From Halosimplex halophilum (GTDB taxonomy: Archaea > Halobacteriota > Halobacteria > Halobacteriales > Haloarculaceae): DNA of 64,000 bases. Made by a program: the position numbers and the translations under genes. Each line of letters begins with the position of its first letter. Positions within the stretch are counted from its first letter, which is position 1. The notes beneath the pieces were generated by a model. It did not search any database, was not told where the DNA came from, and worked only from the letters and a program-made list of their open reading frames with translations. The DNA lies in contig NZ_ML214297.1 in assembly GCF_004698125.1 (NCBI RefSeq), positions 1,772,891 through 1,836,890 on the forward strand, written 5' to 3'. Below are positions 1 through 17,755 of the stretch, piece after piece.

Positions 1-37
1 CCGGGTCGCCCCCGCTCTCGGCGTCGTCGCCGTCCAT
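1..37 (-). CDS. N-terminal fragment of an unidentified gene running off the left edge
   Basis: An ATG on the minus strand at 37 opens a frame encoding the acidic start MDGDDAESGGDP before the window ends. Acidic N-termini of this sort are common in haloarchaeal proteins. Only 12 residues are visible, so neither function nor the reality of the gene can be settled. Confidence 0.3.
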   Translation of the reverse strand, partial: MDGDDAESGGDP

Positions 38-370
38 ATCCGTGAGGACGGGTGAGACCGGGAAAAGTCACTCGTCGCGCTACGCGGACGGGAGCGGACG
101 GAGGTCGGCGGTCGCTACGCGGTGCGGTCGCTCCCTGGTGGCGAGCGAACGGTGGAAAGAGAGGGTGGGTGGAACGGCGGAAAGGGTGGGGTGGAATCGG
201 TGGGGTGGGTGGGGTGCGGCGCCGTCGGGCGCCGACACGCGTGATCGGTTTCGTCGGCAATAAGTGCCTTGTGGCCCAATTTTCGTGAACGATACCTGCC
301 GGTGTACTTAACCGGGAGCCGGTCGATACCGTCGGGATTTAAGCGCTCGCCGGCCGCGGGTTCGAGTGAC
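38..370. other. Intergenic region upstream of sucC with a G-rich tract
   Basis: No convincing gene was seen. Bases 162-219 are dense in G-runs of three to four separated by single T or short spacers on the plus strand. Two TATA-like elements (near 304-311 and 338-343) precede sucC. Confidence 0.6.
338..343 (+). promoter_or_regulatory. TATA element of the sucCD promoter
   Basis: TTTAAG lies 27-33 nt upstream of the sucC ATG at 371. That is the archaeal TATA-to-start spacing expected for a leaderless or very short-leader mRNA. Confidence 0.55.
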
Positions 371-1518
<1,148 letters not shown>

Positions 1519-1522
<4 letters not shown>

Positions 1523-2391
1523 GTGTTCTCGTCGACGAAGACAGCCGCGTCATCGTGCAGGGTATCACCGGCGGTGAGGGCAAGTTCCACACCGAGCAGA
1601 TGATCGAGTACGGGACGAACGTCGTCGCCGGCGCCGTCCCCGGCAAGGGCGGCCAGGAGGTCGCGGGCGTCCCCGTCTACGACACCGTCGCCGAGGCCGC
1701 CGAAGAGGAGGACGCCGACACCTCCGTCGTCTTCGTCCCGCCGGCGTTCGCCGGCGACGCCTGTTTCGAGGCGCTGGGCGTCGACGAGCTCGACCTGGTC
1801 GTCACCATCACCGAGGGCATCCCGACCCAGGACGTGTCGCGGGTCTACCGCCGCCTGCAGGAGACCGACGCCTACCTCGTCGGCCCGAACTGCCCCGGCG
1901 TCATCACGCCGGGCGAGGCCAAGCTCGGCATCCTGCCGGGCAACATCTTCGAGGCCGGCCGCGTCGGCCTCGTCTCCCGCTCGGGCACCCTGACCTACCA
2001 GGTCGTCGACAGCCTCACCCAGCGCGGCATCGGGCAGTCGACCGCCATCGGCATCGGCGGCGACCCGATCATCGGCACCTCGTTCATCGAGGCGCTCGCG
2101 CTGTTCGAGCAGGACAGCAAGACCGACGCCGTCGTCATGTGCGGCGAGATCGGCGGCGAGGACGAGGAAGAGGCCGCCGAGTACATCGACGAGTACATGA
2201 CCACGCCCGTCGCCGGCTTCATCGCCGGCCGCACCGCCCCGCCGGGCAAGCGCATGGGCCACGCCGGCGCCATCGTCTCCGGCTCCGGCACCGGCACCGC
2301 CCAGTCGAAGATCGACGCGCTCGAATCCGCGGGCGTCCCCGTCGGCGACACCCCCGAGGAAGTCGTCGACAACGTCGAAGACCTGCTGTAG
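1519..2391 (+). CDS. sucD: Succinyl-CoA synthetase subunit alpha
   Basis: Encodes 290 residues, the standard SucD length. The N-terminal CoA-binding Rossmann part reads [15 protein letters not shown], followed by [14 protein letters not shown]. The C-terminal ligase part holds [19 protein letters not shown], whose histidine is the phosphorylated catalytic residue in this family. It forms the CoA-binding, phospho-histidine half of the enzyme with SucC. The gene starts inside the last codons of sucC (4-nt overlap). The next gene is 260 nt away with its own promoter-like element, so the operon is sucCD only. T-rich sequence at about 2399-2430 may help termination. Confidence 0.95.
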
Positions 2392-2651
2392 CGGCGCCGT
2401 TCTTCTCTCGGGATTCTCCCTTTTCGCGACCGTTCCGAACACGAGAGGCATCCGCCGGTTCGATCCCGGGCGGTCCGCACGACGCTCTCACGGCGCTGGC
2501 CGCGATCCCCCTGTGGTCGGTCGCCTACTGCGCCACCGCGGGGGAAGAGCAGCCGTCCGGGACCGGTCGGGGCTTTCGGGTCCACTGCGGTCCGGGGACC
2601 GCCACAGCCGGAAGCTATTTGCACACTCATTCGAGACGGTGGGTAACGACC

Positions 2652-4778
2652 GTGACGGACACGAACGAGGACGCGAGCCCGCGGTTCGAGCCGACGATGG
2701 ACCCGACGGGCGTCAGGATCGTCGACCCGATCGAGTCGGTCGAGTTCGCCGTCGGGACGGACCGACCGGTGGATCCGATCCCGGTCGCCGACGAGCCGTT
2801 TCGCTTCCCGGTCGACGCCACTGTCGAGTTCGAAGCGACGGAGATCGAGTTCCCCTACCGAGCTATCCTCACGGTGAGAGACGCCGACGGAACTCACCGA
2901 TGTGACCTGTTCGAGGACGGGGAACAGCGGTTTTCCGGCCGACGATACACGGTCGAACTGAGCAAGACGCCCGTGAAGGTCTACCTCGCCGTCGAGGGCG
3001 AACTCACCGTCCGGATATCCGGAAACTCCGCGGTGGTTCGGACCGAGAACGGTAAGGGAGTCCGTCTCGGCGCTCGGAGCTATCACTCCAGCCCGGCGGG
3101 GACGATCACGACCACCGAGGACCCGACGGACGTGGCGTCGGCGCTCTCGCGTCTCGGATCGGCACTGAAGACGCGCTCGCCCGAACGCTCGTGGCCGACG
3201 CTCCGGGGGTATCCACCGCTCGTCGAGTTCGGTGACGCACTGCACGTACCGGACGGGCTCTCCTCGCCCGACTCCGGCGTGTCGATCGTGGTACCACCGC
3301 GGCTCGATGCCCTCCTTCCGGTCGCTTCACTGGCGTTCTACCTCGACGCGACCGTTCGCATCGGGATGCCCCCTCGTCTGCGCGCGGACGGACGGGAGTG
3401 GTCACTGACCGAGGACGGCGACATCGAGACGACCGTCGCGAACGTGCTTCGACGGCAGTTCACGCTCGACTGCGTCGTCAGAACGACGGGATACTACGAC
3501 TTCGACCTCTTCGAACGTGACCTGCTCGCCGACTTGCTCCCGTTCGACCCCGGTGAGGCGTACGAGTGGCCGCTCGCCGCCCGCGTGGCAGCCTACATGG
3601 ATGTTGCGCCGACTGCGGTCGACGGAGCGGCCCCCCGCTGGCGACTCACCGCCGATCTGGTCCCCGAGCCGGACGCCGTCGAAGCGCTCCCGCACCTGGC
3701 CCACGAACTCGCCGCGATCCGCTGTCCGACCCCGGGAGACATCGACGATCCGGGCGTCGGTGGCGTCGGTCGACCGGTCTTCGGACGAGACCGGTCGGAG
3801 CAGGCGGCGCTCGCTCGGGGGGCAGATGAGGCGTGGAACCAGAACTTCGTGTACCCGGAGACCGCGACGAGCATCGAGCACGCCTACCGCGGACCCGGCG
3901 TTCCGGTGGGTGCGAGCGAACTGTCCGTCTCCGCGTACGAGCGCAGTCTGCGGCGGGATCCAGTCGAGGATGTCGAGACCAGCGTCACGGTCGTCACCAA
4001 CGACACCGACATGATCGAGGGCGACACGGTCGCGGCCATCTACGACCTGAACGAACTAGCGTCGTTCGACGTGAGGATGCTGGAGGGGCTGTCACGGTCG
4101 GAACTCGCGGACGCGCTGGCGACCGAGACAGACCTCTTGCACTACATCGGTCACGTCGACGACAGGGGGTTCGAGTGTGCCGACGGCTTTCTCGACGCGC
4201 GGTCCGTCGCGTCGGTCGGCGCCGAGGCGTTCTTCCTCAACGCCTGCACGTCGTACGAACAGGGCCGAGCGCTGGTCGAGAACGGCGCGACGGGCGGTAT
4301 CGTCACCGTCGCCGACGTGTTCGACAGCACGGCCGAACGCGTCGGCGAGACGGTCGCCCGACTACTCGGGCAGGGGTTCTCGCTGGCCGCGGCGCTGGAG
4401 ATCTGCAAGCGGACCACGGGGTTCCCGACCGGGGAGTACCTCGTCGTCGCCGACGGCGGCGTCCGGGTGACGCAGAACGAGACGGGGGTTCCGCTCGTGT
4501 ACCGCGTTACGTGGGACGAGGGGTTGATCGTGACGCCCGTGGCCTTCCCGGCGAGGGGGATCGGACTCGGGACAACCGTCGTGCCGTTCGGGAACGAGAA
4601 CGATCGCCACTTCCTCGCTGCCGGCGAAGGGTTCCCGATCGACGCCACACTCGACGCTTTCGCCGAGACCATCCGGTCCGAACCGATCCCGCTTCTGGTC
4701 GACGGCGACCTGTACTGGTCCCCGGACCTCACGAGGGACGATATCGCGGGTCTAGTCGATGCCGACTCGAACGAGTGA
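2652..4778 (+). CDS. CHAT-domain (caspase-like) protein
   Basis: Encodes 708 residues from GTG 2652; ATG 2697 is an alternative start. The C-terminal third carries the pattern of the CHAT family of caspase-related cysteine peptidases: H497-Y-I-G-H501 (LLHYIGHVDDRG) and, about 30 residues on, FFLNACTSYEQG with C532, then GGIVTVADV. H501 and C532 form the likely catalytic dyad. The first roughly 350 residues are unrecognised, with a beta-rich N-terminus of acidic haloarchaeal composition. No membrane segment or signal peptide is seen. A TATA-like CTATTTGC lies 33-40 nt upstream. Neighbours are unrelated, so the substrate and pathway are unknown; CHAT proteins elsewhere act in programmed death or defence, which is only an analogy here. 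Confidence 0.75.
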   Translation: MTDTNEDASPRFEPTMDPTGVRIVDPIESVEFAVGTDRPVDPIPVADEPFRFPVDATVEFEATEIEFPYRAILTVRDADGTHRCDLFEDGEQRFSGRRYTVELSKTPVKVYLAVEGELTVRISGNSAVVRTENGKGVRLGARSYHSSPAGTITTTEDPTDVASALSRLGSALKTRSPERSWPTLRGYPPLVEFGDALHVPDGLSSPDSGVSIVVPPRLDALLPVASLAFYLDATVRIGMPPRLRADGREWSLTEDGDIETTVANVLRRQFTLDCVVRTTGYYDFDLFERDLLADLLPFDPGEAYEWPLAARVAAYMDVAPTAVDGAAPRWRLTADLVPEPDAVEALPHLAHELAAIRCPTPGDIDDPGVGGVGRPVFGRDRSEQAALARGADEAWNQNFVYPETATSIEHAYRGPGVPVGASELSVSAYERSLRRDPVEDVETSVTVVTNDTDMIEGDTVAAIYDLNELASFDVRMLEGLSRSELADALATETDLLHYIGHVDDRGFECADGFLDARSVASVGAEAFFLNACTSYEQGRALVENGATGGIVTVADVFDSTAERVGETVARLLGQGFSLAAALEICKRTTGFPTGEYLVVADGGVRVTQNETGVPLVYRVTWDEGLIVTPVAFPARGIGLGTTVVPFGNENDRHFLAAGEGFPIDATLDAFAETIRSEPIPLLVDGDLYWSPDLTRDDIAGLVDADSNE

Positions 4779-4863
4779 CCCCGGTTCGCGCGTACCGCTG
4801 CCAAATCCCTGTCACGTGTGACCGGCCGACGCCCCTTTGACCGCGCCGCCCCAACGCCGATGC

Positions 4864-5721
4864 GTGATAGTCGCCGAGACGGCGGAGGGCTACCAGTTCG
4901 TCACCCAGCCCGACCACGCCGCCCTCGCGGGCCAGTTCGCCGACGCCTGGGGGAACGACGACTTCGACCGCCCGGACCCCTTCGGCTCGCTCGCACTCGC
5001 GGCGTACGCCCACGACACGGGCTGGCGGACCTACGACCGCCGGCCGCACCTCGCGGACGGCGAGCCGGTCGACTTCCGCGAGATGCCCGCCGGGACGTGG
5101 GTCGACCTCTACGACGAGGGGATCGAGGCCGTCGCCGGGATGGACGCCTACGCCGGCCTGCTCGTCTCGATGCACGGCGCCGGGCTGCGGAACCAGCGAT
5201 ACGGCCTCTCGCCGGCGTGGCCGGAGACGCCCGCGGCGTTCCGGGAGTTCGTCGACCGCGAACACCGTCGCCAGCGCCGCCTGCTCGACGCGCTCCGCGA
5301 CGGCGAGCGCGACGGGCCGGCGCCCGTCACGGCCGCCGACCGTGACCTCCTGCGGTCGCTCCATGACGCGAAGCGCGTCCCCGGTGGGTACGACGGGCGG
5401 CTGTGGGCCGACTACCGCCGCCTCCAGGCGTGGGACGCTCTCTCGCTATCCTTCTGTATCACCGACTCGCCGCCCGGCTACGGCGAGATCGACGCCGTTC
5501 CCGCGACCGGCGGGGACGACGCGACGCTCTCGGTCACCGCGCTCGACGACGGCACCTACCGGGTCGATCCCTACCCGTTCGAGACGGCGCCGCTGGAGGC
5601 GACGGTCCCAGTTCGGACCGTCGGGGAGGACGCCCTCGCCGACGAGGCGACGCTCGCGCGAGCGTTCTACGACGCCGGTCGGGAGCTTCGGCGGGTCACG
5701 CTCCGCCCGCCGCCGGAGTGA
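4864..5721 (+). CDS. DUF3891 family protein
   Basis: Encodes 285 residues. GTG 4864 gives MIVAETAEGYQFVTQPDHA, matching the family's typical start and its signature 'TQPDHA'. A TTG at 4837 would add nine poorly conserved residues. Histidines and acidic residues recur (AYAHDTGW, SMHGAGL, FVDREHRRQ, LHDAKRVPGG), a pattern that resembles an HD-like metal-dependent fold, but no activity is established for the family. The protein is soluble with no signal. It sits alone between the CHAT gene and a small conserved gene. Confidence 0.7.
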   Translation: MIVAETAEGYQFVTQPDHAALAGQFADAWGNDDFDRPDPFGSLALAAYAHDTGWRTYDRRPHLADGEPVDFREMPAGTWVDLYDEGIEAVAGMDAYAGLLVSMHGAGLRNQRYGLSPAWPETPAAFREFVDREHRRQRRLLDALRDGERDGPAPVTAADRDLLRSLHDAKRVPGGYDGRLWADYRRLQAWDALSLSFCITDSPPGYGEIDAVPATGGDDATLSVTALDDGTYRVDPYPFETAPLEATVPVRTVGEDALADEATLARAFYDAGRELRRVTLRPPPE

Positions 5722-5784
5722 CGGGCCGGGCGACGACCGCCCCTCACCAAAGCGATTTATCGACGGCTCCCCTCGTGACGTGGT

Positions 5785-5967
5785 ATGGAAGACGAGGCCT
5801 GGCGTTCGGTCGAAGTCGTCCGGAACAACAAGGGCGAACCGCACGTCCTCCAGCAGAAGGTCAGCGTCTACACCGCGGGCGTCACCGAGGAGTCCTCGGG
5901 CTACACGAAACCCGAGATGCAGCACCGACTCGTGCCGCTCAAGAGCCTGGTCGAACTCGACGGCTGA
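5785..5967 (+). CDS. Small conserved haloarchaeal protein
   Basis: Encodes 60 residues, MEDEAWRSVEVVRNNKGEP onward, containing VLQQKVSVYTAGVTEESSG and a C-terminal hydrophobic patch PLKSLVELDG. A TTTAT element 25-29 nt upstream (5756-5760) supports a real leaderless gene. No known domain is recognised and it has no signal or membrane segment. Its composition and promoter argue for a genuine gene; its function is unknown. Confidence 0.65.
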   Translation: MEDEAWRSVEVVRNNKGEPHVLQQKVSVYTAGVTEESSGYTKPEMQHRLVPLKSLVELDG

Positions 5968-6063
5968 GTCGGCGGCCACCGCCGGCCGGTCGCCGTCGAC
6001 CGGGTTCGGCCGGCCGACGCGTGCGATACTTTATGAGGGAGTCCGGGACCACTCCCGCTCGCC

Positions 6064-6621
6064 GTGGGAGCGCGCACGCTGGTCGCGGTCGAACGCGACG
6101 CCGACGGGTACGACCTGCACCGCTCACAGTGGGGCGGCGAGCACGTCGACCGGCTGGTCGCCCTGGTTCGGGCCGACGAGGCGCCCCCCGACCTCGTCGA
6201 CCCGGAGCCGTTCCGCTCGGGCGCGTCCGTCGAAGAACTCCTCGACTCGCTCGACCCCCGGGAGTTCGAGGTTCTGGTCGTCGCCGGCGACCGGACCGAG
6301 GCGTTCCTCGTCCCCCGGCTGGCCATCGAGACCGGCCGGCGGTACGGGACCGCATCCGGTGCGGCCACCGACCGGGAGACTCCTTCCACCGACGCCGAAC
6401 CGTCGGCGCTCGTCCCCTGGCCCGGCGAGGCCGCCGCCGAGCGGATCCGGCGGTTCCTGCGCACCGCGAAAGACGTGCTCGGCGACGCGGTCGACGCCGG
6501 CCTCGTGCCCGCGCCCGCGGCGACGCGGTACCTCGCCGTCCGGGTCGCTCGCCACCCCGATACGCTCGACCCCGACGCGATCCTGTGGATCGACGGAGGT
6601 GAGCGCGCGAGCAGCGGCTGA
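6064..6621 (+). CDS. Hypothetical haloarchaeal protein, DUF6735-like
   Basis: Encodes 185 residues from a GTG. The start MGARTLVAVERDADGYDLH followed by SQWGGEHVDRL resembles a haloarchaeal family that I recall as DUF6735. A TTTAT element lies about 30 nt upstream. The protein is soluble, with a low-complexity acidic middle (about residues 98-120). A middle segment FEVLVVAGDRTEAFLVPRL and a C-terminal WIDGG are the most ordered parts. The biochemical role is unknown. It precedes nucS, separated by 49 nt with a separate promoter. Confidence 0.65.
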   Translation: MGARTLVAVERDADGYDLHRSQWGGEHVDRLVALVRADEAPPDLVDPEPFRSGASVEELLDSLDPREFEVLVVAGDRTEAFLVPRLAIETGRRYGTASGAATDRETPSTDAEPSALVPWPGEAAAERIRRFLRTAKDVLGDAVDAGLVPAPAATRYLAVRVARHPDTLDPDAILWIDGGERASSG

Positions 6622-6670
6622 CCCGTCCCGTGTCGCGCGGTTTTTAGCCCCCGACGCCCAACCCCGAGGC

Positions 6671-7429
6671 GTGACTGCCGTCGAGGAGGGACTCCGGCTG
6701 GAGACGCGCGAGCGCCCGGGCCACGAGACCGCACGGGACCTCGTGGCCGAGGCCATCGACGCCGGCGCCCTGGTGACCGTCGTCGGCCGCTGCACCGTCG
6801 ACTACGAGGGCCGCGCGTCGAGCACGCTCGGCCCCGGCGAGCGGCTGGTGATGCTCAAGCCAGACGGCGCCGCGCTGGTCCACACCGACGAGGGCCAGCA
6901 GCCGGTCAACTGGCAGCCCCCGGACTGCGACCACGAGGCCCGCCTGGACGAGGGCCACCTCGTCGTCGAGAGCCACCGCGAGACGCCCGAGGAACACCTC
7001 CGGGTCGACTTCGAGGCCGTGCTGGAGGTGTCGGCCTACGGGCTGACCGACGAACGGGACCTCTCGCTGGAGGGCACCGAGGAGGACCTGCGCCAGCGGA
7101 TCCTCGACGAACCGTCGCTGGTCGAGGAAGGGTTCATTCCACTTGCGACCGAGCGGTCGACGCCCGCCGGCGCCGTCGACATCTACGGCGAGGACGCCGA
7201 GGAGCGGGCGGTCGCCGTCGAACTCAAGCGCCGGCGGGTGGGGCCCGACGCCGTGGGGCAACTGGGCCGGTACGTCGACGCGCTGGAGCGAGACCTCCAC
7301 GCCGACCGACAGATCCGCGGCATCCTCGTCGCGCCGTCGGTCACCGACCGCGCGCGCCGGCTGCTCGCCGAGCGCGGGCTGGAGTTCGTGCCGCTAACGC
7401 CGACCGGGCCCGACGGCGTCGACGGCTGA
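6671..7429 (+). CDS. nucS: Endonuclease NucS (EndoMS), mismatch-specific
   Basis: Encodes 252 residues from GTG 6671, the usual NucS length. The N-terminal half is the DNA-binding/dimerisation domain (GRCTVDYEGRASSTLGPGERLVMLKPDG). The C-terminal RecB-like nuclease core shows GAVDIYGED, then AVAVELKRRRVGPDAVGQL, matching the D...ExK...Q catalytic signature, then GILVAPSVTDRARRLL. In archaea NucS cuts both strands at mismatches. A TATA-like TTTTTAG lies about 28 nt upstream. The gene faces mutS end to end, 54 nt apart. The protein ends PDGVDG, lacking an obvious PCNA-binding peptide at the extreme C-terminus. Confidence 0.9.
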   Translation: MTAVEEGLRLETRERPGHETARDLVAEAIDAGALVTVVGRCTVDYEGRASSTLGPGERLVMLKPDGAALVHTDEGQQPVNWQPPDCDHEARLDEGHLVVESHRETPEEHLRVDFEAVLEVSAYGLTDERDLSLEGTEEDLRQRILDEPSLVEEGFIPLATERSTPAGAVDIYGEDAEERAVAVELKRRRVGPDAVGQLGRYVDALERDLHADRQIRGILVAPSVTDRARRLLAERGLEFVPLTPTGPDGVDG

Positions 7430-7483
7430 CCGCGGATCGACGCGGAGAACTGAGCGGATCCCGTCCGCTTGTCCGCCCGAGCC

Positions 7484-10270
7484 TCAGTCGTCCAGCGACT
7501 CCTTCAGCTCGGCGAGAGCGTTCATCGCCTCCAGCGGCGTCATCGTCGCCACGTCGAGGTCGGCGAGTCTCCGTTCGAGCTCCGAGTCGGGACCGCTATC
7601 GTCGCCGCCGGCGCTGTCGCCCTCGTCGGCGGTGCTGCTCACGCGGACGTTCTCGTCGAGGTCGTGGCCGTTAGACTCGACCGTCCCCGGACCGTCCGAC
7701 CCGGACTCGCTCTCGTCGAGCAGCTCGCGCGAGCGGTCGACCACCGCGTCGGGCACGCCGGCCAGCTTCGCCACCTCGATGCCGTAGGAGGCGGCGGCGG
7801 CGCCGGGCGCGACCTCGTGTTCGAAGGCCACCTCGCCGTCCGTGCGCTCCGTCTCGAAGTGGAGGTTGAACACGCCCGACAGCTCGTCGGCGATGGCGGT
7901 CAGCTCGTGGTGGTGGGTGGCGAAGAGGGTGGTGGCGCCGATCTCGTCGTGGATGTGCTCGGTGACCGCGCGGGCGATGGCGAGGCCGTCGGCGGTGCTG
8001 GTGCCGCGGCCGACCTCGTCGAGCAGGACCAGCGACTCGCCGGTGGCGTTGTTCAGGATGTCGGCGAGTTCGGTCATCTCGACCATGAAGGTAGAGCGAC
8101 CGCCGGCGATGTCGTCGCTGGCGCCGACGCGGGTAAAGACTCGGTCGACGACCGGGAGCCGGGCCTCGGCGGCGGGGACGAAACTCCCGGCCTGGGCGAG
8201 CACGGAGGTGAGCGCCACCTGGCGCATGTACGTCGACTTGCCGCTCATGTTCGGGCCGGTGATCACGGCGAAGAAGTGCTCGTCGTCGAAGTGGGCGTCG
8301 TTGGGGACGAACCGCTCCTCGGCGCGCTCGACGACGGGGTGGCGCCCGGCCTCGACGGCGAACTCCTCGGCGCCCACGCAGGGGCGGGTGTAGTCGAACT
8401 TCGCCGCCACGCTCGCGAAGGAGACGAACACGTCCAGCCGCGCGAGCCGGTCAGCCAGCGCCTGCACCCGCTCCGACTCGTCGGCCACGTCCCGGCGCAC
8501 CTCGCAGAACAGCTCGTACTCGAGGTCGTCCGCGCGGTCCTCGGCGCGGATGATCTCGTCCTCCCGTTCCCTGAGTTCGGGCGTGACGAACCGCTCGGAG
8601 TTCTTCAGGGTCTGCCGGCGCTGGTAGTCGTCGGGCACCCGATCGAGGTTCGGGTCGGTCACCTCGATGTAGTAGCCGTGGACGGAGGTGTGGCCGACCT
8701 TCAGCGAGTCGATGCCGGTGCGCTCGCGCTCGCTCGCTTCGAGGTCGTCGATCCACGCTTTGCCCTCCCGTTCCGTGCTCCGGAGGTCCGCGAGTTCGTC
8801 GTCGAACCCGGGCTTGACGATGCCGCCCTCCGTGAGGTCGGCGTCCGGGTCCTCCTGGATGGCCTCGTCGATCAGTTCGCGCACGTCGGCGAGGGGGTCG
8901 AGGTGTTCGCGCAACTCGACCAGCGTCGCGGAGTCGGCGTCCGACAGGGCGGCTTCCACGTCGGGGACGACCGCGAGCGTGTCGTGCAGCGAGCGCAGGT
9001 CCCGCGCCGTCGCGCGGCCGCGGGCGACCCTGGAGATGAGCCGCTCGATGTCGTACACGTCGTCGAGCAAGTCGTGCAGGTCCTCGCGCAGTCCCACGTC
9101 GCCGGTCAGTTCCGCGACGGCGTCGTGGCGGGCGGCGATGCGGTCCTCGTCCAGCAGGGGGCGGCGCAGCCAGTCGTCGAGCTTCCGGCGGCCGAGCGCG
9201 CAGGCGGTCTCGTCGAGCGCGTCGACGAGCGTGAGCGCCCGGTCGCCGTGGACCGCCCGGCGGTCGAACAGCTCTAAACTTTCCAGCGCGACCCGGTCCA
9301 GCAGCATGTACTCCCGCGGGTCGTACCGCGTGAGGGTGTTGATGTAGTCGAGCGTCGCGGTGTCGTCGATGCCGTCGTCGTTCGCGGTCGCGCCGGGCCC
9401 GGCCACTTCGGCCGTCGCGTCGTCGCCGATGTCGCCGGCGTCGGGGTTGCCGCCGCGGGTGTACTCGGCGTAGGCGAGCAGGGCGCCGATGGCCCGGACC
9501 TCCGCCTCGTCGGCCAGCCCGAGGTCCCCGAAGTACGCCTCGACGCGCTCGCGGGCGCGCTCGGCGTCGAAGGCCGTCCGCTCGTAGGGCGAGACCATGC
9601 AGTCGCCGTCGAACACGTCGGCCGGCGCGTCGGGGCCGACGATCGCTTCGGCGGGCGCGAACCGCCCGAGTTCGTCCGCGACCGAGTCCAGCCGGTCGGC
9701 GCTCGTCGCGTAGCAGTCGCCGGTCGACACGTCCAGCAGGGCGAGCCCGTACGGGCCGTTCTCGTCGCCGCCGGCCCCTGCACCGCCGCCCGCCCGCTTC
9801 GTGTCCCGGGTCGACGTATCGCCGCCCGGACCGTCCGCGGTGAGGCAGGCGACGAAGTTGTTGTCGGCGCTGCGCAGGAGTTCGTCCTCGGTGAGCGTCC
9901 CCGGCGTGACGACCCGGGTGACCGCCCGGTCGACCACGCCGCTGACCTCGTCGGGGTCCTCGACCTGGTCGGCGACCGCCACGCGGTAGCCCGCCTCCAG
10001 CAGCCGTTCGATGTACGACTCGGCGTTGTCGATGGGGATGCCCGCCATCGCGTACTCGCCGGTCGAGTCCTCGCGTTTGGTCAGCGTGATCTCGCAGATG
10101 CGGGCCACCCGCTCGGCCGCCTCGCAGAACGCCTCGTAGAAGTCACCCACCTGAAAGAGCACCAGCGAGTCGTCGTACTCCCGACAGAGCTCGAAGTACT
10201 GGGCCATCATCGGCGTCAGGTCCTCCTCCCGCTCGGCCATCTTCGCCGGCGCCCCCAGTGCCGCGTCCAT
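7484..10270 (-). CDS. mutS: DNA mismatch repair protein MutS (MutS1 type)
   Basis: Encodes 928 residues from ATG 10270. An upstream ATG (10306) overlaps the likely TATA box, so the inner start is preferred. Full domain set: mismatch-binding domain I with the F44-Y45-E46 motif (GDFYEAF), connector, lever and clamp domains, and ATPase domain V with Walker [10 protein letters not shown], Walker [13 protein letters not shown] and ATHHHEL. A haloarchaea-like acidic linker (roughly residues 840-890) precedes a C-terminal helical tail [19 protein letters not shown]. It recognises mismatches and small loops in the cytoplasm. No mutL is in the window. It is convergent with nucS. Confidence 0.95.
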
Positions 10271-10296
10271 GGGTGTGTGGGAGCGGGTCCCCCGGG

Positions 10297-10302
10297 TTAT
10301 AT
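10297..10302 (-). promoter_or_regulatory. TATA element of mutS
   Basis: On the minus strand ATATAA lies 26-32 nt before ATG 10270 and overlaps the upstream ATG at 10306. This decides the mutS start. Confidence 0.6.
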
Positions 10303-10361
10303 CCATCGGCTCCCCGTCTCCGAGTTGGTTCGAGCAGTCGGCCGGGTCGATACCACCGTCG

Positions 10362-10394
10362 ACAGCGAGCGGTGAAAGCCCTCGCCGCGCTCGC
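10362..10394. repeat. 33-bp direct repeat, copy 1
   Basis: It begins acagcgagcggtgaaagccc and ends gcgctcgc. It is identical to the copy at 10419 except for one base (g/a at position 11). Ends AGCGAGCG and CGCTCGCT (the final T one base outside) can pair as a short stem, so each copy could also fold as a hairpin. Confidence 0.7.
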
Positions 10395-10418
10395 TAGCAG
10401 TGACTGTGACCGCAGGAT

Positions 10419-10451
10419 ACAGCGAGCGATGAAAGCCCTCGCCGCGCTCGC
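10419..10451. repeat. 33-bp direct repeat, copy 2
   Basis: Second copy of the element at 10362, with repeat starts spaced 57 bp apart and one mismatch. The conserved core is gaaagccctcgccgcgctcg. Confidence 0.7.
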
Positions 10452-10812
10452 GGTCGCTGAGCGGCATATCCGCGCTCTCCGCACCGCCCGCGCGGATAGC
10501 GGTCGCTCAGGCGACTGAACTGCACGCAAGCGCGCCTCGCCCTTTCAGTCCACCAGGAACGGCACCGCAACCGCCCTGCACAGCACCGCAGACGGCCACG
10601 AACCTCCCCAGCCGATTCGCTCCGTCACTCCGTTCCTCCGCTCATCCCTCGCGCGGCTACGGTCGCGCGCATGAACGCGCGCTCCAGCGCACGCCGACCG
10701 CATTCGTTGCCACGCCGTCCCGCATCGAATCCCGCTAGTATCGTCCATCCACCGACTCACACACGAGCCGAGCCGCAGAGGGCTTACACGCGTCGGGGAC
10801 GTACACCCGGGC

Positions 10813-11145
10813 ATGGCCGCGACACACGACCGTCCCGTCTCGCTGTCGACCCGGGCCGAACTCGACGACCTCGTCGCGAGTCACGACCGGGTGCTCGTCG
10901 AGTTCCACACGGAGGGCTGCGGGAAGTGCGCGGCGATGGAGCCGGTCCTGAGCGGGGTCGCCCGCTCGACCGACGCCGTCGTCGCGACGATGAACCCGCG
11001 GGACGACCCCCAGCTGATCGACGAGTACGACGTGCGGAGCGTCCCGAAACTCCTCCTGTTCGTCGACGGCGACCTCGCCGGGACCCGCGAGGACGGGGTC
11101 CTCTCCGTCGGGGAAGTACAGGAGTTCGTCGCGGAAAGCGGCTGA
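10813..11145 (+). CDS. Thioredoxin-fold protein
   Basis: Encodes 110 residues with a single thioredoxin fold. The active site is EGC36-G-K-C39 in VLVEFHTEGCGKC, replacing the classical WCGPC, and the cis-proline loop reads VRSVPKLLLF. It probably acts as a cytoplasmic thiol-disulfide oxidoreductase; no signal peptide is seen. The CGKC active site differs from that of canonical thioredoxin, so redox potential and partner may differ. The gene is divergent from mutS across a long gap and convergent with the sensor kinase gene downstream. Confidence 0.85.
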   Translation: MAATHDRPVSLSTRAELDDLVASHDRVLVEFHTEGCGKCAAMEPVLSGVARSTDAVVATMNPRDDPQLIDEYDVRSVPKLLLFVDGDLAGTREDGVLSVGEVQEFVAESG

Positions 11146-11196
11146 CGCTCCGGTCGAGTGGCGCAGCCGGACGGGCCGCCGCCGGCAGTCCCGGCC

Positions 11197-13227
11197 TCAG
11201 TCGAGCGGGTCGAGTTCGGTCACTGTCACGTTCTCGAAGACGGCTTCGCTGGTCTCGTCGGCGCTGTGGCTGCAGACGGCGAGGCCGACGACCACCGGGT
11301 CGGCGAGATCGATCCGTCGCTGGTCGATGGGGTGCCAGTCCTCGCCGTCGGTGGACCACGACAGCGTCACCGTGCCGTCGACGGCGTCGAGGCGGTACCA
11401 CGGGTAGGCGTCGTAGGGCTCCTCGAGCTGGTCGCTCCCCGCGGCGGCGCCGGCCTCGTGGCGCCACATCGTCTCGGTGCCGTGGTCGCCCGTCGCGCCG
11501 ACGAACGCGAACGCGGCGTCCTCGGCGAGGGTGTCCCTGACCATCAGCCCGGCCTTGCTGTACTCGTGGACGGCCTCCAGTTCGTCCAGCCGCCCCTCGA
11601 TCCGGACGGGCCCGTCGAGTTCGACGTAGGCGAAGTGGAACTCGTCGATGTCGTGCCAGATGTCCCGGCCGTCGCCGACGACCCGCCAGGACCCGTCCGC
11701 CGCGCCGGGGGTCGCCGAGCCGGCGACGGACACGTCGCCCACGTCGACGTTCCCGGTGAGCGCCACCGGCTCGCCGGTCGGCTCGGCGGGTTCGGGGACC
11801 ACGACCGGGCACTCGGTGAACTCGAAGCGCGCGCCCGGGGCGTCGCCGGTCTCGCTCTCGCGGATGTCGACCTCCCAGCCCTGCTGGTCGACGGTCTCGG
11901 CGACGATCGCCAGCCCCGTCCCGGTGCCGTCCTCGGTGGTCGTGTAGCCGGCTTCGAGGACCTGCTCGCGCTCGGCCTCGGGGATGCCGGGGCCGTCGTC
12001 CTCGACGTAGAAGCCGCGGTCGGTCGTCCCCACGCGGACGGTCACGTCCGGACCGGCGTGGTCGAGGGCGTTCTTCAGGAGGTTCTCGACCAGCGGCCGG
12101 ACGGCCTCGGTCTCGGCGATGACCTCGGTGCCCTCGGGAACGGCCACCTCCAGCGTCGCGTCGTCGGTGCCGTGGACGCTCCAGACCTGTTCGACCAGCG
12201 GCGCGAGCTCCGTCGAGGAGACGCCCACGTCGAGCACGTCGAGCACCTCCTCGGAGAGGTCGACCGTCCGGTCGCCCTTCGAGAGGGCGCTGAGGTCCGC
12301 GAGGATCTCCTCGATGCGCTCGTTGGCCCGCTCGATCCGGTCGAACGCCTCCTCGTGGCCCTCGCGGGCCCGTTCGAGGGCGCCGACGGAGACCTGCAGC
12401 GGCGTCCGCAGGTCGTGGGAGACGTAGCTGGCGAACTCGTCGAACCGGCGCTGCTGTTCCTCCAGGCGTCGCTTGAGCTGCATCCGCTCGGTGACGTCGA
12501 GCGCGTAGCCGACCACCCCGACAACGCGGCCGTCCCCGTCGCGCCAGGGGACCTTCGTCACCTCCGACCAGTGGTCGCCGCCCTGCGTCTCGAAGTGCTC
12601 GATCTGGCGACGGATCGGCTCGCCGGTCTCGGCGACGCGGAGGTCGTCCTCGTAGGCCTCCCGGTCGGCGTCCGAACCGTGGTCGAACACCTCCGGGTCG
12701 GTCTTCCCGACGAACTCCTCGGGGTCCGGCGTGTACGGCACGTCGGCCATCCGGACGTACCGGCCCGCCTCGTCCTTGGCGAACATCGTCATCTGTCCCT
12801 CTTCGAGCAGCGTCCGGAGGATGCCGCTGTCGGCGGCGGCCTGGCGCCGCTCCCGGAAGGTCGCCACCGCGTCGTCGACGACCGCGCCGAGCGTCTCGAC
12901 GGAGGCCGACCGCGGGAGGTACCGGCAGTCGGCCCGCCCCGCGACGGCCGCGGCGACCGCCTCGTCGTCGGCGTAGGCGACGACCGGCAGGTGGTCGCTG
13001 ACCGCTCTGGCGGCCTCGACGGCGTCGTCGAACCCGGCCTCGTCGACGCCCACGGCGACGATACAGCCGACGTCGTTCCGTGCGGAGAGCCGCTCGGTCA
13101 GGTCGTCGCGGTCCGCGACGGCGACGGCCTCGATCGCGTCCGGGAGCGCCCCGCGGACGCGGTCCCGGTCGTCGGTCGATCCGCCGACGACGAGGGCGAC
13201 AGTCGGGTCCGCCAGGAGGTGACTCAT
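11197..13227 (-). CDS. Soluble PAS histidine kinase with C-terminal lectin/glucanase-like domain
   Basis: Encodes 676 residues from ATG 13227; GTG 13242 is an alternative. Order: a receiver-like N-terminal domain (about 8-115; ALVVGG, then DVGCIVAVGVDEAG, with a degenerate phospho-acceptor region), a PAS domain (about 130-245) ending VVGYALDVTERM, a HisKA helix with H271 in SYVSHDLRTPLQ, a HATPase with ENLLKNALDHA, EDDGPGIP and GTGTGLAIV, and then an extra domain at about 512-672. That last part (EYSKAGLMVRDTLAEDAAF, ETMWRHEAGA, WYRLDAVDGTVTLSWSTDG) looks like the concanavalin-like DUF1349 type usually found in secreted carbohydrate-binding proteins. No membrane segment is visible, so the sensor appears cytoplasmic. 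No cognate response regulator is adjacent. Confidence 0.85.
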   Translation of the reverse strand: MSHLLADPTVALVVGGSTDDRDRVRGALPDAIEAVAVADRDDLTERLSARNDVGCIVAVGVDEAGFDDAVEAARAVSDHLPVVAYADDEAVAAAVAGRADCRYLPRSASVETLGAVVDDAVATFRERRQAAADSGILRTLLEEGQMTMFAKDEAGRYVRMADVPYTPDPEEFVGKTDPEVFDHGSDADREAYEDDLRVAETGEPIRRQIEHFETQGGDHWSEVTKVPWRDGDGRVVGVVGYALDVTERMQLKRRLEEQQRRFDEFASYVSHDLRTPLQVSVGALERAREGHEEAFDRIERANERIEEILADLSALSKGDRTVDLSEEVLDVLDVGVSSTELAPLVEQVWSVHGTDDATLEVAVPEGTEVIAETEAVRPLVENLLKNALDHAGPDVTVRVGTTDRGFYVEDDGPGIPEAEREQVLEAGYTTTEDGTGTGLAIVAETVDQQGWEVDIRESETGDAPGARFEFTECPVVVPEPAEPTGEPVALTGNVDVGDVSVAGSATPGAADGSWRVVGDGRDIWHDIDEFHFAYVELDGPVRIEGRLDELEAVHEYSKAGLMVRDTLAEDAAFAFVGATGDHGTETMWRHEAGAAAGSDQLEEPYDAYPWYRLDAVDGTVTLSWSTDGEDWHPIDQRRIDLADPVVVGLAVCSHSADETSEAVFENVTVTELDPLD

Positions 13228-13310
13228 CGGGATTACCGACACCGTATGCGATGCAGGTAAATAAGGCCCGGGGGGGCCGGTGAACGGTCCGGTCGCTGGT
13301 GTGTACCGGC

Positions 13311-14081
13311 CTACGTGTCGACGGCACGACGGATCGCCGAGGGGTCGGTTCCGCCGACGAGCAGCGACGTGTACCAGCCGGCCGCCCGCGCAGCGAAGTT
13401 ACAGACGTGCAGCGACGCGAGCGTCGCCACCAGCCCGAACGCCGAGACGGCCAGCGCCTCCGGCAGCGTGGTGACGTACCACGTCGTCAGCCGGAACGGG
13501 ACCGTGAGCCCGACCTCCCAGGTCCGGAGCGCGACCTCGACGGACGGCTGGACGTTCATCTCCCCGGAGACCGGCCGGACGCCGACGTTGACCGACCGGT
13601 AGTACAGCGGCACGAGCAACAGCGACAGCGACACCGTCCCCAGCAAGACCAGCAGCGTGAACGCCGCGGTCCCGACGAGGACCTTGCTCAGGAGGAAGAC
13701 GACCCCCCGCCACGTCGAGAGGCTCGTGAGCGCGTGTTTCAGGTGGGCGACCGGGTCGGTGAGCGGGGGCACCTCGGCCTCGCCGGCGGGGGCGTCGACG
13801 GCGAGCAGCCGGTCGGCCGCGTACCGTTCGAGCGCGGTCAGTTCCCGGACCAGCAGTATCGTCCCGGCGAGCACGGGGAGGCCGACGAGTATCACCGCCA
13901 GCCCGACGCCGAGCCCGAAGCCCAGCGGGAGCAGTATCGAGTACGCCATTCCCAGCGGGAACAGCGCCGAGAGGTACAGCAGGTTCGCGTACGTCCGGAG
14001 CCGGAAGGGCACGCCGACGAACCGCCGGAGGAGGGCGCCCGGCCGGCCGGGTATCCGGAGCGCGGGGACCAGTCGGCTCAT
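13311..14081 (-). CDS. Membrane protein with putative sensor domain (PF13796-like)
   Basis: Encodes 256 residues with about four to five hydrophobic segments. The N-terminal signature TYANLLYLSALFPLGMAYS, followed by a glycine-rich membrane helix LGFGLGVGLAVILVGLPVL, matches the 'putative sensor' membrane domain found in bacterial and haloarchaeal signalling proteins. No kinase or output domain follows, so this is a stand-alone membrane module. It lies 83 nt upstream of, and in the same direction as, the PAS histidine kinase gene. A joint sensory role is possible but not shown. Confidence 0.65.
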   Translation of the reverse strand: MSRLVPALRIPGRPGALLRRFVGVPFRLRTYANLLYLSALFPLGMAYSILLPLGFGLGVGLAVILVGLPVLAGTILLVRELTALERYAADRLLAVDAPAGEAEVPPLTDPVAHLKHALTSLSTWRGVVFLLSKVLVGTAAFTLLVLLGTVSLSLLLVPLYYRSVNVGVRPVSGEMNVQPSVEVALRTWEVGLTVPFRLTTWYVTTLPEALAVSAFGLVATLASLHVCNFAARAAGWYTSLLVGGTDPSAIRRAVDT

Positions 14082-14190
14082 TGTCGACTGCTCGCCCGCC
14101 GGCGTAGTAAAACTGTTCGTACAGGCGCGAGGACGGCCGCTACCGGCGGCTCCGGCCCCGGGTCGACGAACGACGAGCGGCGAGTCCCGG

Positions 14191-14538
14191 TCACGCGCCG
14201 GTCAGCGCGTAGAGGATCGACCCGAGGCCGAGGATCTCCAGGAGCGCCCAGGCGAGGACGCCCGCGGCGTCGCTGGCGAGCAACACGGAGACCAGCAGCG
14301 TCGTGACGACGAACGGGGCCGCGGTCACGAGGAAGATACCGACGCCGAGAAACAGCATCGGGCGGCTGTCGTTGCGGCGGTACCCGCGGTAGGCCTGGTA
14401 GGCGACGAACAGCCCGACTGCGGCGGTCAGCGCCCCGGTGAGCGTCGCCGGCGTAACCGCCGGGCCGCCCTGGAGCGGTGCAGTCCCGGCGGGGAAGGGC
14501 ACCGCGGGTGACGCGGCGCCCGCGAGCGGGTCGCTCAC
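14191..14538 (-). CDS. Small membrane protein, DUF7521-like
   Basis: Encodes 115 residues from GTG 14538. It has three predicted membrane helices: TLTGALTAAVGLFVAYQAY, then MLFLGVGIFLVTAAPFVV, then a C-terminal LLEILGLGSILYAL. A short basic YRGYRRNDSRP loop follows helix 1. It resembles the preceding paralogue at 14603-14965 (shared loop YRGxR-D--MLFLxVGI and C-terminal ILGLGxILYA). I recall this as a haloarchaeal family often beside ArsR-type regulators. Function unknown. Confidence 0.65.
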   Translation of the reverse strand: MSDPLAGAASPAVPFPAGTAPLQGGPAVTPATLTGALTAAVGLFVAYQAYRGYRRNDSRPMLFLGVGIFLVTAAPFVVTTLLVSVLLASDAAGVLAWALLEILGLGSILYALTGA

Positions 14539-14602
14539 GGCGCCACCTCCCGGCGGGGACCGGCGTCCGGGTCGCGTTCGTGGGGGTGTGGGGTGCGTGC
14601 GG

Positions 14603-14965
14603 TCATGGTCGTCCGTAGACGGCGTAGAGGATACAGCCGAGGCCGAGCAGTTCGCTGACGGTCGTCGACAGCAGGCGGACGGACTCCGGCGCGTCGGTGA
14701 GCGTCGGGAGGGCGATGCGGAGGGCGATGGGGCCGCCGGTCAGGAGGACGATCCCGACCGCCAGGAACAGCATCGCCCGGTCGCGGGTGCCCCGGTAGCC
14801 CTTCAGCGCCTCGTAGGCGATGAGCAGCGACAGGCCGGCCGCGACGGCCAGCCCCAGCAGGGCCAGCGCCGCGAGCAGGGCGGACCCGCCGGTCGCGGAG
14901 ACCTGCAGGGCGGGCCCCGGGGCGGGAGCGTGGCCGATCGCGGGAGCGGATGTCGCGGGTATCAT
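14603..14965 (-). CDS. Small membrane protein, DUF7521-like, coupled to a regulator
   Basis: Encodes 120 residues from ATG 14965, which overlaps the stop of the winged-helix regulator by 4 nt (ATGA), showing translational coupling. Three hydrophobic segments surround a basic loop ALKGYRGTRDRAMLFLAVG, and the C-terminus reads LLGLGCILYAVYG. It is a clear paralogue of the next gene. The operon context (regulator first, then two membrane proteins) suggests the regulator controls these proteins or that they form a small signalling unit. Confidence 0.7.
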   Translation of the reverse strand: MIPATSAPAIGHAPAPGPALQVSATGGSALLAALALLGLAVAAGLSLLIAYEALKGYRGTRDRAMLFLAVGIVLLTGGPIALRIALPTLTDAPESVRLLSTTVSELLGLGCILYAVYGRP

Positions 14966-15321
14966 GGTTCTGTGAGTCCCTCGAACAGCCGCGTGAACCG
15001 GTCGGCGGCGTCCACCTCGCGGCGAGACACGTCGATGGTGCACTCGCCGTCCTCGATCTCGACGGTGACGCGCTCGACGCGCGTCTGATACGTCTTGTAG
15101 TGGTGGCCGTCCGGGTCCAGCTGCTGCTGTTCGACGATGAGGTCGTACTCGCGGAGCTGTTCGATGCGCCGGTAGATCGTCGGCTCGGAGGCGTCGCAGC
15201 GCTCGGCCAGCGCCGAGGCCGACAGCGCCTCGCGGCTCGACTCGACCAGGATCGCGCGGGCGTACTCGTCGTCGAGCAACGAGATCACGTCCGCCTCCTC
15301 GGGATCCTGCCCGGCTGCCAT
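14962..15321 (-). CDS. ArsR-like winged-helix transcriptional regulator
   Basis: Encodes 119 residues from ATG 15321. The HTH covers EALSASALAERCDASEPTIY with the recognition helix SEPTIYRRIEQLREYDLI; a short beta wing and a C-terminal domain (TYQTRVERVTVEIEDGECT) follow. A TTTTATG element 26-32 nt upstream (15347-15353) supports the start over longer alternatives. It heads a three-gene unit with two DUF7521-like membrane proteins and is probably autoregulatory. No metal-binding cysteines are visible, so a thiol-metal sensor role is unlikely. Confidence 0.8.
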   Translation of the reverse strand: MAAGQDPEEADVISLLDDEYARAILVESSREALSASALAERCDASEPTIYRRIEQLREYDLIVEQQQLDPDGHHYKTYQTRVERVTVEIEDGECTIDVSRREVDAADRFTRLFEGLTEP

Positions 15322-15397
15322 CACCCGACCGTTTTCCCGGCGGTCACATAAAAGGGGCCACACGCTTTCCGACCCGGAAACTGTGACCCGGGCCGGG

Positions 15398-15715
15398 CTA
15401 CGCGAGGGTCGCGATCCAGCCGACGGCCAACAGGAGGGCGGCGCCGGTGGAGATCACGGGCAGGAGGTACAGGTAGGCCGGTGCCGGTTCGACGCCGTTC
15501 CGGAGGTGATCCGGGTTCCGATACATCCGGACGGCCCCGAGGAGCGCGAACCCGCCGAGGGCGGCCATACCGGCCTCGTAGGTCGTCGCGCTGGCGGAGA
15601 GGGCCGCGGCCGCGAACTCACCGACGTACACGGCGCCCAAGAGGCCGAAAACGTACGCGATCACGTCGACGCGCCGGACCCGCTCGCTCGGAGGGCTCGA
15701 GAGGGCGGTCGCCAT
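15398..15715 (-). CDS. Small membrane protein of unknown function
   Basis: Encodes 105 residues from ATG 15715. Three hydrophobic helices are visible (VIAYVFGLLGAVYVGEFAAA, AGMAALGGFALLGAVRMY, APAYLYLLPVISTGAALLLA). No family is recognised. It stands alone between the regulator unit and the flavin oxidoreductase. Confidence 0.55.
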   Translation of the reverse strand: MATALSSPPSERVRRVDVIAYVFGLLGAVYVGEFAAAALSASATTYEAGMAALGGFALLGAVRMYRNPDHLRNGVEPAPAYLYLLPVISTGAALLLAVGWIATLA

Positions 15716-15797
15716 ACCGGATCGTCTCCGCTCAGCCACAGGAACGTTTCGGTGCGGCCAGGACACGGTCCGCCCGGCATCGCCCGCCGGCCCGGTG

Positions 15798-16832
15798 TTA
15801 CCCGAACCCCTCGGCTTCGATATACTGGCCGGGAACGCCGACGGACTCTGCGGCGTCGACGAGGCTGTTGACCATCACGTTGATCCCGCAGGCGTACACC
15901 TCGGCGTTCCCGGGGTCGATGCGCGCGTCGACGCCGGAGGCGGGCGCCTCGTCGAGCCACCCCTCCAGCTCCCGGCCGAGCGGTGCGGTCACGGCGCTCT
16001 CGTCGACGTGTTTGACGAACGCGTGCTGGACGTAGTCGGTCTCGCCCGTCCACTCGCTGAGGTAGGACTCGCGGCTCAGACAGGGGACGAAGTGAAAGCC
16101 CTCGTGGTCGCGGTCGTACGCGCGGAACGCCTCGCGGTAGGGCAGGTCGTCCTCCCAGGCTGCGCCGAGGAACAGCCACACGTCGCGGCGGTCGCCGTCG
16201 ACCACGTCGGCGCCGGTGTCGAAGACGTAGTCGATCATCCCCTTCAGCGGCGCGACGCCGGTCCCGGTCGCCATGAAGACCAGGTCCCGCGCCGAGGGGC
16301 CGTCGAGGACGAGTTCCCCCCGCGGGCCGCGCATCGTCACCTCGTCGCCCACGTCGAGGTCGCGGCAGAGCCGCGGCGACAGGTCCCCGCCGGGGACGCG
16401 ACGGACGCAGATCTCGACGGTGTCGCGGGTGGGCGAACTCGCCAGCGAGTAGGCCCGCGACTCCCCGCAGTAGCGCAGCCCGACGTACTGGCCGGCGAGG
16501 TACTCGAAGGTGTCGTCGGGTTCCAAGGCGATGCGGACGAGCATCGGGTGGGGCCGCTCGTAGCGCTCCCGCAGCGTCGCACACCGGCGCGCGAACCGCG
16601 CGTAGCCGTCCGCGCGCAGTTCCGCGACGAGCTGTCCCCAGTCGTCGTAGTCGGTGACGCTCTCGTAGCGGTCGGCCAGCCCCTCCCGCTCGAACCAGTG
16701 GTCGACGGTTCGGCGGACCTCCTCGGTCCGGTCGCGGTCCATCGCCTCCCGCTCGACGACCGTCGCCGACTCGGTCACCAGCGGCAAGTCGGCGATCCGG
16801 TCGTGTCTCGACGCGTGCTCCCTGACGGGCAT
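15798..16832 (-). CDS. FAD/NAD(P)-binding oxidoreductase, ferredoxin-NADP reductase type
   Basis: Encodes 344 residues. The FAD-binding barrel carries the flavin motif SRAYSLASSP and GPRGELVLDG; the NAD(P) domain has FMATGTGVAPLKGMI and a C-terminal VYACGINVMVNSLVDAAE. It belongs to the FNR superfamily, as in phenol hydroxylase or flavohaemoglobin reductases. The first roughly 95 residues are an acidic, helical extension with no ferredoxin cysteines (ATVVEREAMDRDRTEEVRR...), so the electron partner is a separate protein. A clear GGAGG ribosome-binding site sits 8 nt before the ATG. The physiological acceptor is unknown. Confidence 0.8.
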   Translation of the reverse strand: MPVREHASRHDRIADLPLVTESATVVEREAMDRDRTEEVRRTVDHWFEREGLADRYESVTDYDDWGQLVAELRADGYARFARRCATLRERYERPHPMLVRIALEPDDTFEYLAGQYVGLRYCGESRAYSLASSPTRDTVEICVRRVPGGDLSPRLCRDLDVGDEVTMRGPRGELVLDGPSARDLVFMATGTGVAPLKGMIDYVFDTGADVVDGDRRDVWLFLGAAWEDDLPYREAFRAYDRDHEGFHFVPCLSRESYLSEWTGETDYVQHAFVKHVDESAVTAPLGRELEGWLDEAPASGVDARIDPGNAEVYACGINVMVNSLVDAAESVGVPGQYIEAEGFG

Positions 16833-16840
16833 TACTCAGT

Positions 16841-16845
16841 CCTCC
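16841..16845 (-). promoter_or_regulatory. Shine-Dalgarno site of the flavin oxidoreductase gene
   Basis: GGAGG is spaced 8 nt from ATG 16832. It stands out because most genes here look leaderless; this mRNA probably carries a short leader. Confidence 0.55.
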
Positions 16846-16928
16846 GGGCCCGCGGTAGTAAGTACTGGCGGGCCGTTCGACGTGTCGGTCTCCCCAGTCC
16901 TGTCAGCGCCTTTCGACCAGCCGCCCGC

Positions 16929-17594: not shown

Positions 17595-17755
17595 ACCTCC
17601 CGATTGCGGTCGCACGGGGAAAAGCGCCCGGTAACACGGGTGTCACCGGCCGTCGACCCTGACCGCCGTCACCGGCCGGCGACACCGATCCCCGGCACCG
17701 GCCGACGTTGCGGCCACGGACAGATTTAACAGGGAGATCCAGTCTTGTGGGTGAT

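Follow-up and report, generated by a model that had tools for sequence, protein, structure and literature searches.

The 64,000-nucleotide stretch of the Halosimplex halophilum genome analyzed here (contig NZ_ML214297.1, positions 1,772,891 to 1,836,890; hereinafter, the window) carries two convergent genes, nucS, encoding the endonuclease NucS (EndoMS), and mutS, encoding a MutS protein of the MutS1 type. Across 155 haloarchaeal genomes, MutS of this type (hereinafter, window-type MutS) is found either with an adjacent gene for MutL or with NucS in the genome, but never with neither, and nucS and mutS stay together, in the convergent orientation, across most of the haloarchaeal families, whereas their genomic surroundings do not. 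We propose, with about even confidence, that nucS and window-type mutS act in one pathway, as a conserved two-gene mismatch-processing module apart from MutS-MutL. That haloarchaea can possess both NucS and MutS-MutL is already well known; the open-licence literature that we searched yielded no description of the conserved nucS-mutS pair or of the alternation between NucS and the adjacent MutL (denoted MutLb below).

The survey sample spans 11 families and 53 genera and includes many draft genomes (genomes, loci and families are designated here by our G, L and f labels). All 155 genomes were searched for the NucS_N domain, window-type MutS, MutL and the second MutS1 paralog of H. halophilum (C2 MutS); follow-up searches addressed full-length NucS (59 genomes), MutL positions (35), MutS domain I (23) and a full-length MutL model (14). 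The NucS_N, window-type MutS, MutL and C2 counts are those among the matches listed, and weaker second copies are at least as numerous as counted. NucS is absent from 18 of the 155 genomes, with the partial match in G075 scored as absence, and window-type MutS is absent from 14, in addition to G136, a fragmented genome. A second, short MutL was detected in 33 genomes, namely, all 25 of family f2 along with G003, G006, G008, G022, G062, G075, G080 and G086; we refer to this protein, defined as a PF01119 match adjoining window-type MutS, as MutLb. In G006 and G008, MutLb is the only MutL.

The distribution of window-type MutS follows that of its potential partners. All 33 genomes with MutLb, 7 of these lacking NucS, encode window-type MutS, as do 107 of the 111 genomes with NucS and no MutLb (the gene is missing in G046, G054, G069 and G136). 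By contrast, none of the 11 genomes with neither partner has it (G001, G009, G017, G025, G026, G038, G070, G082, G111, G131 and G145); all of these retain one gene with a C2-type MutS domain I and a MutL. For the co-occurrence of NucS and window-type MutS among genomes without MutLb, the Fisher exact test gives p = 1e-12, with genomes counted without regard to relatedness.

Gene order follows the same division. Comparison of positions shows that, in all 33 genomes with MutLb, its gene closely follows that of window-type MutS downstream, in the same orientation. In the 21 MutS-MutLb stretches that were examined, the two genes overlap or are separated by at most 63 nt in 20 cases and by 774 nt in one, and nucS is present in none (0/21). 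When a genome encodes both MutLb and NucS (26 cases), nucS is located more than 30 kb from mutS or on a different contig, although the draft contigs leave some doubt here. Conversely, among the 107 genomes with NucS and window-type MutS and without MutLb, 88 contain the convergent pair, in 8 of the 11 families (71 apparent from the first positions, 13 genomes of family f9, and G056, G106, G132 and G150 recognized via full-length NucS). In the remainder, G108 has both genes on one strand, about 6 kb apart, and in 13 genomes the genes are unlinked, including G048 and G081, which were scored so from the best NucS match and the lack of nucS in the 7 kb surrounding mutS; five f9 genomes (G049, G077, G088, G112 and G122) were left out for the linked nucS copy. 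In one of the convergent loci, L108 (draft genome G132), nucS and the linked mutS are both split into several frames, with C2 MutS remaining open, which reflects either joint decay or assembly errors.

The same picture emerges from 80 named haloarchaeal nucS loci with flanks of up to 10 kb. Window-type MutS is encoded convergently downstream of nucS in 75 of these (the exceptions are L011, L015, L039, L043 and L085), and after removal of the five Halosimplex-like loci, it is present in 70 of the remaining 75; Halosimplex species are the closest named relatives. None of the other open reading frames (ORFs) of the window (at least 100 aa, positions 1-18000, antisense shadow frames of both genes aside) is shared by more than 4 of these 75 loci, so that the association of nucS with mutS goes beyond chance. 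The original prediction, which suggested that nucS and mutS form a shared repair island and called for a survey of synteny, thus holds with respect to the two genes, and one observation that it considered fatal, namely, a neighborhood unique to this strain, is excluded by the wide conservation of the pair.

The association of window-type MutS with its potential partners also shows in a count of evolutionary changes. On a tree of EF-2 from 73 genomes, the presence of NucS changes 12 times, in a count that scores every absence alike and does not distinguish gain from loss. Among the groups without NucS, window-type MutS is kept in all 6 that have MutLb and in none of the 6 that do not (Fisher p = 0.002), and this result is unchanged when G038, whose relatives also have no window-type MutS, is disregarded. 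In a quickly built tree of 72 MutS sequences, those in the NucS context and the unlinked window-type ones belong to one group (48 rows), apart from those in the MutLb context, and the switch between the NucS and MutLb contexts requires a single change, the unlinked rows being left out. The DQHAx2Ex4E nuclease motif of MutLb is kept in 17 of 21 loci (L112-L131 and L231; unmatched in L112, L122, L130 and L231), so that a change of partner would exchange one endonuclease for another.

Window-type MutS is also retained where MutL is missing. Two genomes of one genus, G034 and G102 (each 99% complete and in two contigs), encode exactly one protein with a MutS domain I and no C2 MutS. Each has two nucS genes, one of which (in loci L093 and L092, respectively) is convergent with an intact window-type mutS, with a 4-nt overlap. 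The search for MutL in these genomes produced no PF01119 match, and the full-length model scored 27 bits at best, over a range of positions that other ATPases share, compared to over 470 bits in the 12 other genomes searched with this model (in G006 and G008, only with the pieces summed). Thus, window-type MutS is kept in genomes where no MutL exists. This genus represents a natural case of a genome with MutS and without MutL.

Taken together, these observations suggest that NucS took the place of MutL in a second repair module. In the mechanism that we envisage, window-type MutS would find mismatches, probably in recombination heteroduplexes or in post-replicative DNA, and would hand these over to NucS or otherwise help this endonuclease, which would replace MutL as the strand-cutting partner; C2 MutS and MutL, encoded elsewhere in the same genome, would constitute the ordinary pathway. 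Direct targeting of NucS by MutS is a more tentative component of this scheme. Speculative, and rather unlikely in our estimate, is a third kind of mismatch repair, in which MutS swapped MutL for a tailless NucS that it recruits or licenses for MutS-directed double-strand cutting. If the module is real, haloarchaea combine a MutS-MutL module with a MutS-NucS module, under a sharp rule on which partner is kept, and the interplay between NucS and MutS becomes testable by gene deletion in genetically tractable archaea.

Some sequence features of NucS appear compatible with such dependence. The roles of the pocket and nuclease residues have been described for NucS (PMC6829318). Outside of family f9, the linked NucS proteins, the window copy included, retain the pocket residues Y41, N76 and W77 (Thermococcus kodakarensis numbering) in 79 of 80 cases and the nuclease triad in 80 of 80; the exception is L105 (G106, family f5), where N76 and W77 are lost, the triad is kept, and no other strong NucS is present. 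In f9, which probably corresponds to Halobacterium and its relatives, all 13 genomes with a linked NucS have a second, unlinked one. The linked f9 proteins retain the triad in 13 of 13 cases, whereas N76 or W77 is lost in 10 of 13 (N76 in L094-L097, L099-L101 and L104, and W77 in two others, L102-L103) and P79 in 13 of 13; the three unlinked f9 proteins that were examined (L145, L146 and L147) have intact pockets. In the speculative scheme of a MutS that recruits NucS, the linked NucS of f9 and of the one f5 genome, with a decaying pocket and an intact triad, may have become MutS-dependent nucleases.

In the characterized NucS enzymes, a C-terminal motif binds the sliding clamp, which strongly boosts cleavage (PMC8228993). 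A clamp-like end, [KE][LY][STR][DL]F, is found in none of 108 linked-type NucS and in all four unlinked paralogs that we denote NucS-b (L145, L146, L150 and L151); the classical PCNA-interacting peptide (PIP) pattern is matched by none of the 112 NucS, the four NucS-b included. The NucS-b proteins are 35-39% identical to the window NucS, share a conserved K-L-[ST]-D-F C-terminus and are encoded away from window-type MutS. In C2 MutS, the C-terminal part, otherwise variable, contains a Q-x-[VIL]-F-[DE] motif in 23 of 24 sequences (L087:8134-10923 and L259-L278; the exception is L073, with an apparently frameshifted tail), which, going by bacterial and PIP motifs, we take to be a possible clamp-binding motif. 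It is missing in all 103 NucS-linked or unlinked window-type MutS and in all 21 MutLb-linked ones. Loss of the clamp motif as a signature of linkage was considered and dropped because the lack is shared by two unlinked f2 NucS and, in the case of the C2 motif, by the MutLb-linked MutS. By its domains and predicted active site, the window protein is a NucS, but its dependence on the clamp should not be assumed, and a divergent motif is possible.

A number of observations weigh against the proposed module. The genes for NucS and window-type MutS remain unlinked in 13 of the 107 genomes as well as in the f2 genomes, and G046, G054, G069 and, perhaps, the fragmented G136 have NucS without window-type MutS. 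Given that 79 of the 80 linked NucS outside of f9 keep the mismatch pocket, these would need no MutS for recognition. With regard to the tails, some aromatic residue is present among the last 8 in 42 of the 108 linked-type NucS, and the two unlinked f2 NucS that were examined also have no clamp-like tail. A relaxed MutL-binding connector domain had been predicted for the NucS-linked MutS, and the opposite was observed: with the ATPase domain equally conserved in both sets (identity 0.65-0.72), connector identity is 0.56 among the NucS-linked and unlinked MutS versus 0.35 among the MutLb-linked ones. With the connector conserved, the NucS-linked MutS may still bind the single MutL. The stricter independent-pairs test on the species tree, which has too few pairs, does not reach significance (p about 0.125; about 3.8 concordant pairs, 0 opposite and 1.2 undecided), and neighboring genes can vanish in one deletion, so that co-loss is not clean proof of a functional connection.

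Genetic data from two haloarchaea bear on the same point. In Halobacterium salinarum, strains without both mutS1 genes, or without mutL, show a parent-like mutation frequency (PMC2816208), which also weighs against the module; the table in that paper does not list a strain lacking only the presumed linked mutS, and nucS, not mentioned in its text, is presumably intact. The nucS and mutS genes of this archaeon bear the consecutive tags VNG_0171G and VNG_0172G, an adjacency on which the accessible part of the source does not comment (PMC9997560), and from the gene order, we infer that VNG_0172 is of the linked MutS type. A NucS-dependent module may help explain the missing mutator phenotype of mutS or mutL deletions in H. 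salinarum. Haloferax volcanii has mutS1a-mutLa and mutS1b-mutLb, each mutS1 with a mutL (PMC7776575). In several f2 genomes, nucS lies, by eye and without a count, about 30-75 kb from C2-type MutS, and the f2 gene order suggests that HVO_0552 is of the C2 type and HVO_1940 of the window type. The mutS1a mutant of H. volcanii is unaffected and the nucS mutant is affected (PMC11276520). On this mapping, the mutants do not support coupling of NucS to MutS in H. volcanii, where window-type MutS has its own MutL.

The main rival to the module is that the pair is a relic of an ancestral island that included mutL, C2 mutS, nucS and window-type mutS, so that window-type MutS uses the single MutL of the genome and has no tie to NucS; we consider this a real, if minority, possibility. 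Within 12 kb, two linkage groups are apparent among the 107 genomes: MutS-nucS in 89 (G108 included) and C2 MutS-MutL in 70, whereas window-type MutS and C2 MutS are that close in only 18; the genomes include drafts, and C2 MutS is on another contig, or not among the matches listed, in 29. In 28 of 107 genomes, C2 MutS lies no more than 50 kb from the linked pair, and in 24 of these MutL does as well. The 24 genomes with all four genes within 50 kb make an ancestral repair island plausible, and the tags for mutL (0159), mutS (0163), nucS (0171) and mutS (0172) of H. salinarum cluster alike (PMC9997560). The conserved connector domain and the ease with which a joint deletion would produce co-loss fit the relic scenario equally. 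However, 61 of the 89 linked pairs lack both C2 MutS and MutL within 50 kb on their own contig, so that the bond between nucS and mutS has outlasted the ancestral island. Furthermore, the two genomes that keep window-type MutS without any MutL, and the dependence of MutS on MutLb in the groups without NucS (6/6 versus 0/6), are at odds with a mere relic.

Alternatively, the two genes could be co-inherited for complementary functions without interaction, either as a transferred repair cassette or in parallel action on different mismatches, which we consider improbable. The MutS and EF-2 trees disagree: EF-2 unites family f3, the MutS proteins of which fall into both MutS clades (L110 versus L124, L127, L129 and L131). 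This discrepancy points to a MutS-MutLb operon that was transferred or replaced, so that, to judge from the trees, transfer has probably happened. The difference in the substrate ranges of NucS and MutS (PMC8228993) is likewise consistent with parallel action. However, this explanation does not account for the presence of window-type MutS in NucS-less genomes only together with MutLb, and the flanking genes do not travel along with the pair.

Finally, mutual antisense control of the 3' ends by convergent transcription, which the original prediction had raised and to which the 54-nt spacer in the window and the abutting or overlapping stop codons in 10 of 98 spacer values lend some appeal, is highly improbable, and as the cause of the conserved linkage it was rejected because of the variable length and the unremarkable fold of the spacer, which in the window folds no better than shuffled sequences (z -0.71). 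Spacer lengths vary between -29 and +9193 nt, with a median of about 700 (98 values, with the pair from the window included and two split-frame loci contributing two values each); 32 of these values are above 1000 nt, 52 of the 75 named loci have a spacer of more than 250 nt, and conserved ORFs occur in longer spacers. With such variability, a conserved 3' overlap is not what keeps the pair together.

In the window itself (Table 1), the coordinates, strands, convergence and 54-nt gap (7430-7483) had all been given correctly in the original prediction, and, to judge from the sequence, both genes appear intact, as it had maintained: the pocket, the nuclease residues, GDFYE and the ATPase motif GPNMSGKST are all kept. 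The NF003270 model scores 338.8 bits on NucS (cut-off 216), and the protein can be aligned with T. kodakarensis EndoMS (5gke) and Pyrococcus abyssi NucS (2vld). The MutS protein is matched by NF003810 and TIGR01070 and has the hallmarks of MutS1, that is, domains I-V, the F-x-E mismatch motif and Walker A. The two putative TATA-like boxes occupy positions expected for leaderless haloarchaeal transcripts.

The assembly of the source genome consists of seven contigs, with the window on C1. The second MutS1 paralog, C2, is encoded at C2:876733-879519 and is about 40% identical to the window MutS; the genome additionally contains two weaker MutS_V matches and one NucS. A MutL search of the whole assembly identified a sole MutL, at C2:920363-922390. 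The lack of MutL near the window, correctly noticed at the outset, is thus due to the location of the single mutL on contig C2. The initial description of NucS and MutS as two mechanistically different routes is valid for the enzyme families, but it overlooked the second MutS1 paralog and the lack of a MutL of the window MutS's own.

Table 1. Features of the nucS-mutS locus in the window
Feature	Position	Strand	Description
nucS (EndoMS)	6671..7429	+	252 aa, GTG start at 6671; Pfam NucS_N + NucS_C; NCBIfam NF003270
NucS N-terminal mismatch-binding domain	6767..7057	+	residues 33-129; Y45, N80, W81 = T. kodakarensis Y41, N76, W77
NucS C-terminal nuclease domain	7079..7402	+	D170, E184, K186 = T. 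kodakarensis D165, E179, K181; no clamp-binding tail behind
54-nt spacer separating both stop codons	7430..7483	.	length not conserved among loci
mutS, MutS1 type, NucS-linked paralog	7484..10270	-	928 aa, ATG at 10270; MutS domains I-V
MutS domain I, including GDFYE mismatch-recognition motif	9881..10216	-	residues 19-130
MutS domain V ATPase, GPNMSGKST	7712..8266	-	residues 669-853
Putative TATA-like box of nucS	6641..6647	+	~27 nt 5' of nucS start; read by eye
Putative TATA-like box of mutS	10302-10297	-	~27-32 nt 5' of mutS start; read by eye

Between mutS and a histidine kinase gene, the window contains a 31-nt GC-rich repeat in two copies with one base different (10364-10394 and 10421-10451; chance expectation 0.00). 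The kinase gene (11197-13242, minus strand) encodes a PAS/HisKA/HATPase sensor kinase, the last 140 residues of which are weakly similar to DUF1349, below the curated cut-off; it is present in only 2 of the 75 other nucS loci.

Among the known systems, the window NucS shares with EndoMS/NucS of Thermococcus, Pyrococcus, Mycobacterium and Corynebacterium the same two domains, the base-flipping pocket and the D-E-K nuclease residues. However, the described enzymes come mostly from organisms without MutS and use a C-terminal clamp motif (PMC8228993), whereas the window NucS has no such tail and is encoded beside MutS. With MutS1-MutL repair, the window MutS has in common the full domain set, GDFYE and the ATPase; haloarchaeal orthologs elsewhere directly precede MutL, whereas the NucS-linked clade does not have that MutL and its usual neighbor is NucS. 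The gene order at VNG_0171/VNG_0172 of H. salinarum resembles that in f9 genomes such as G094. In Thermococcus, nucS is likewise linked to a DNA repair gene, in the endoMS-radA operon (PMC7776575); that arrangement is an operon in one genus only, whereas the haloarchaeal pair is convergent and spans 8 families.

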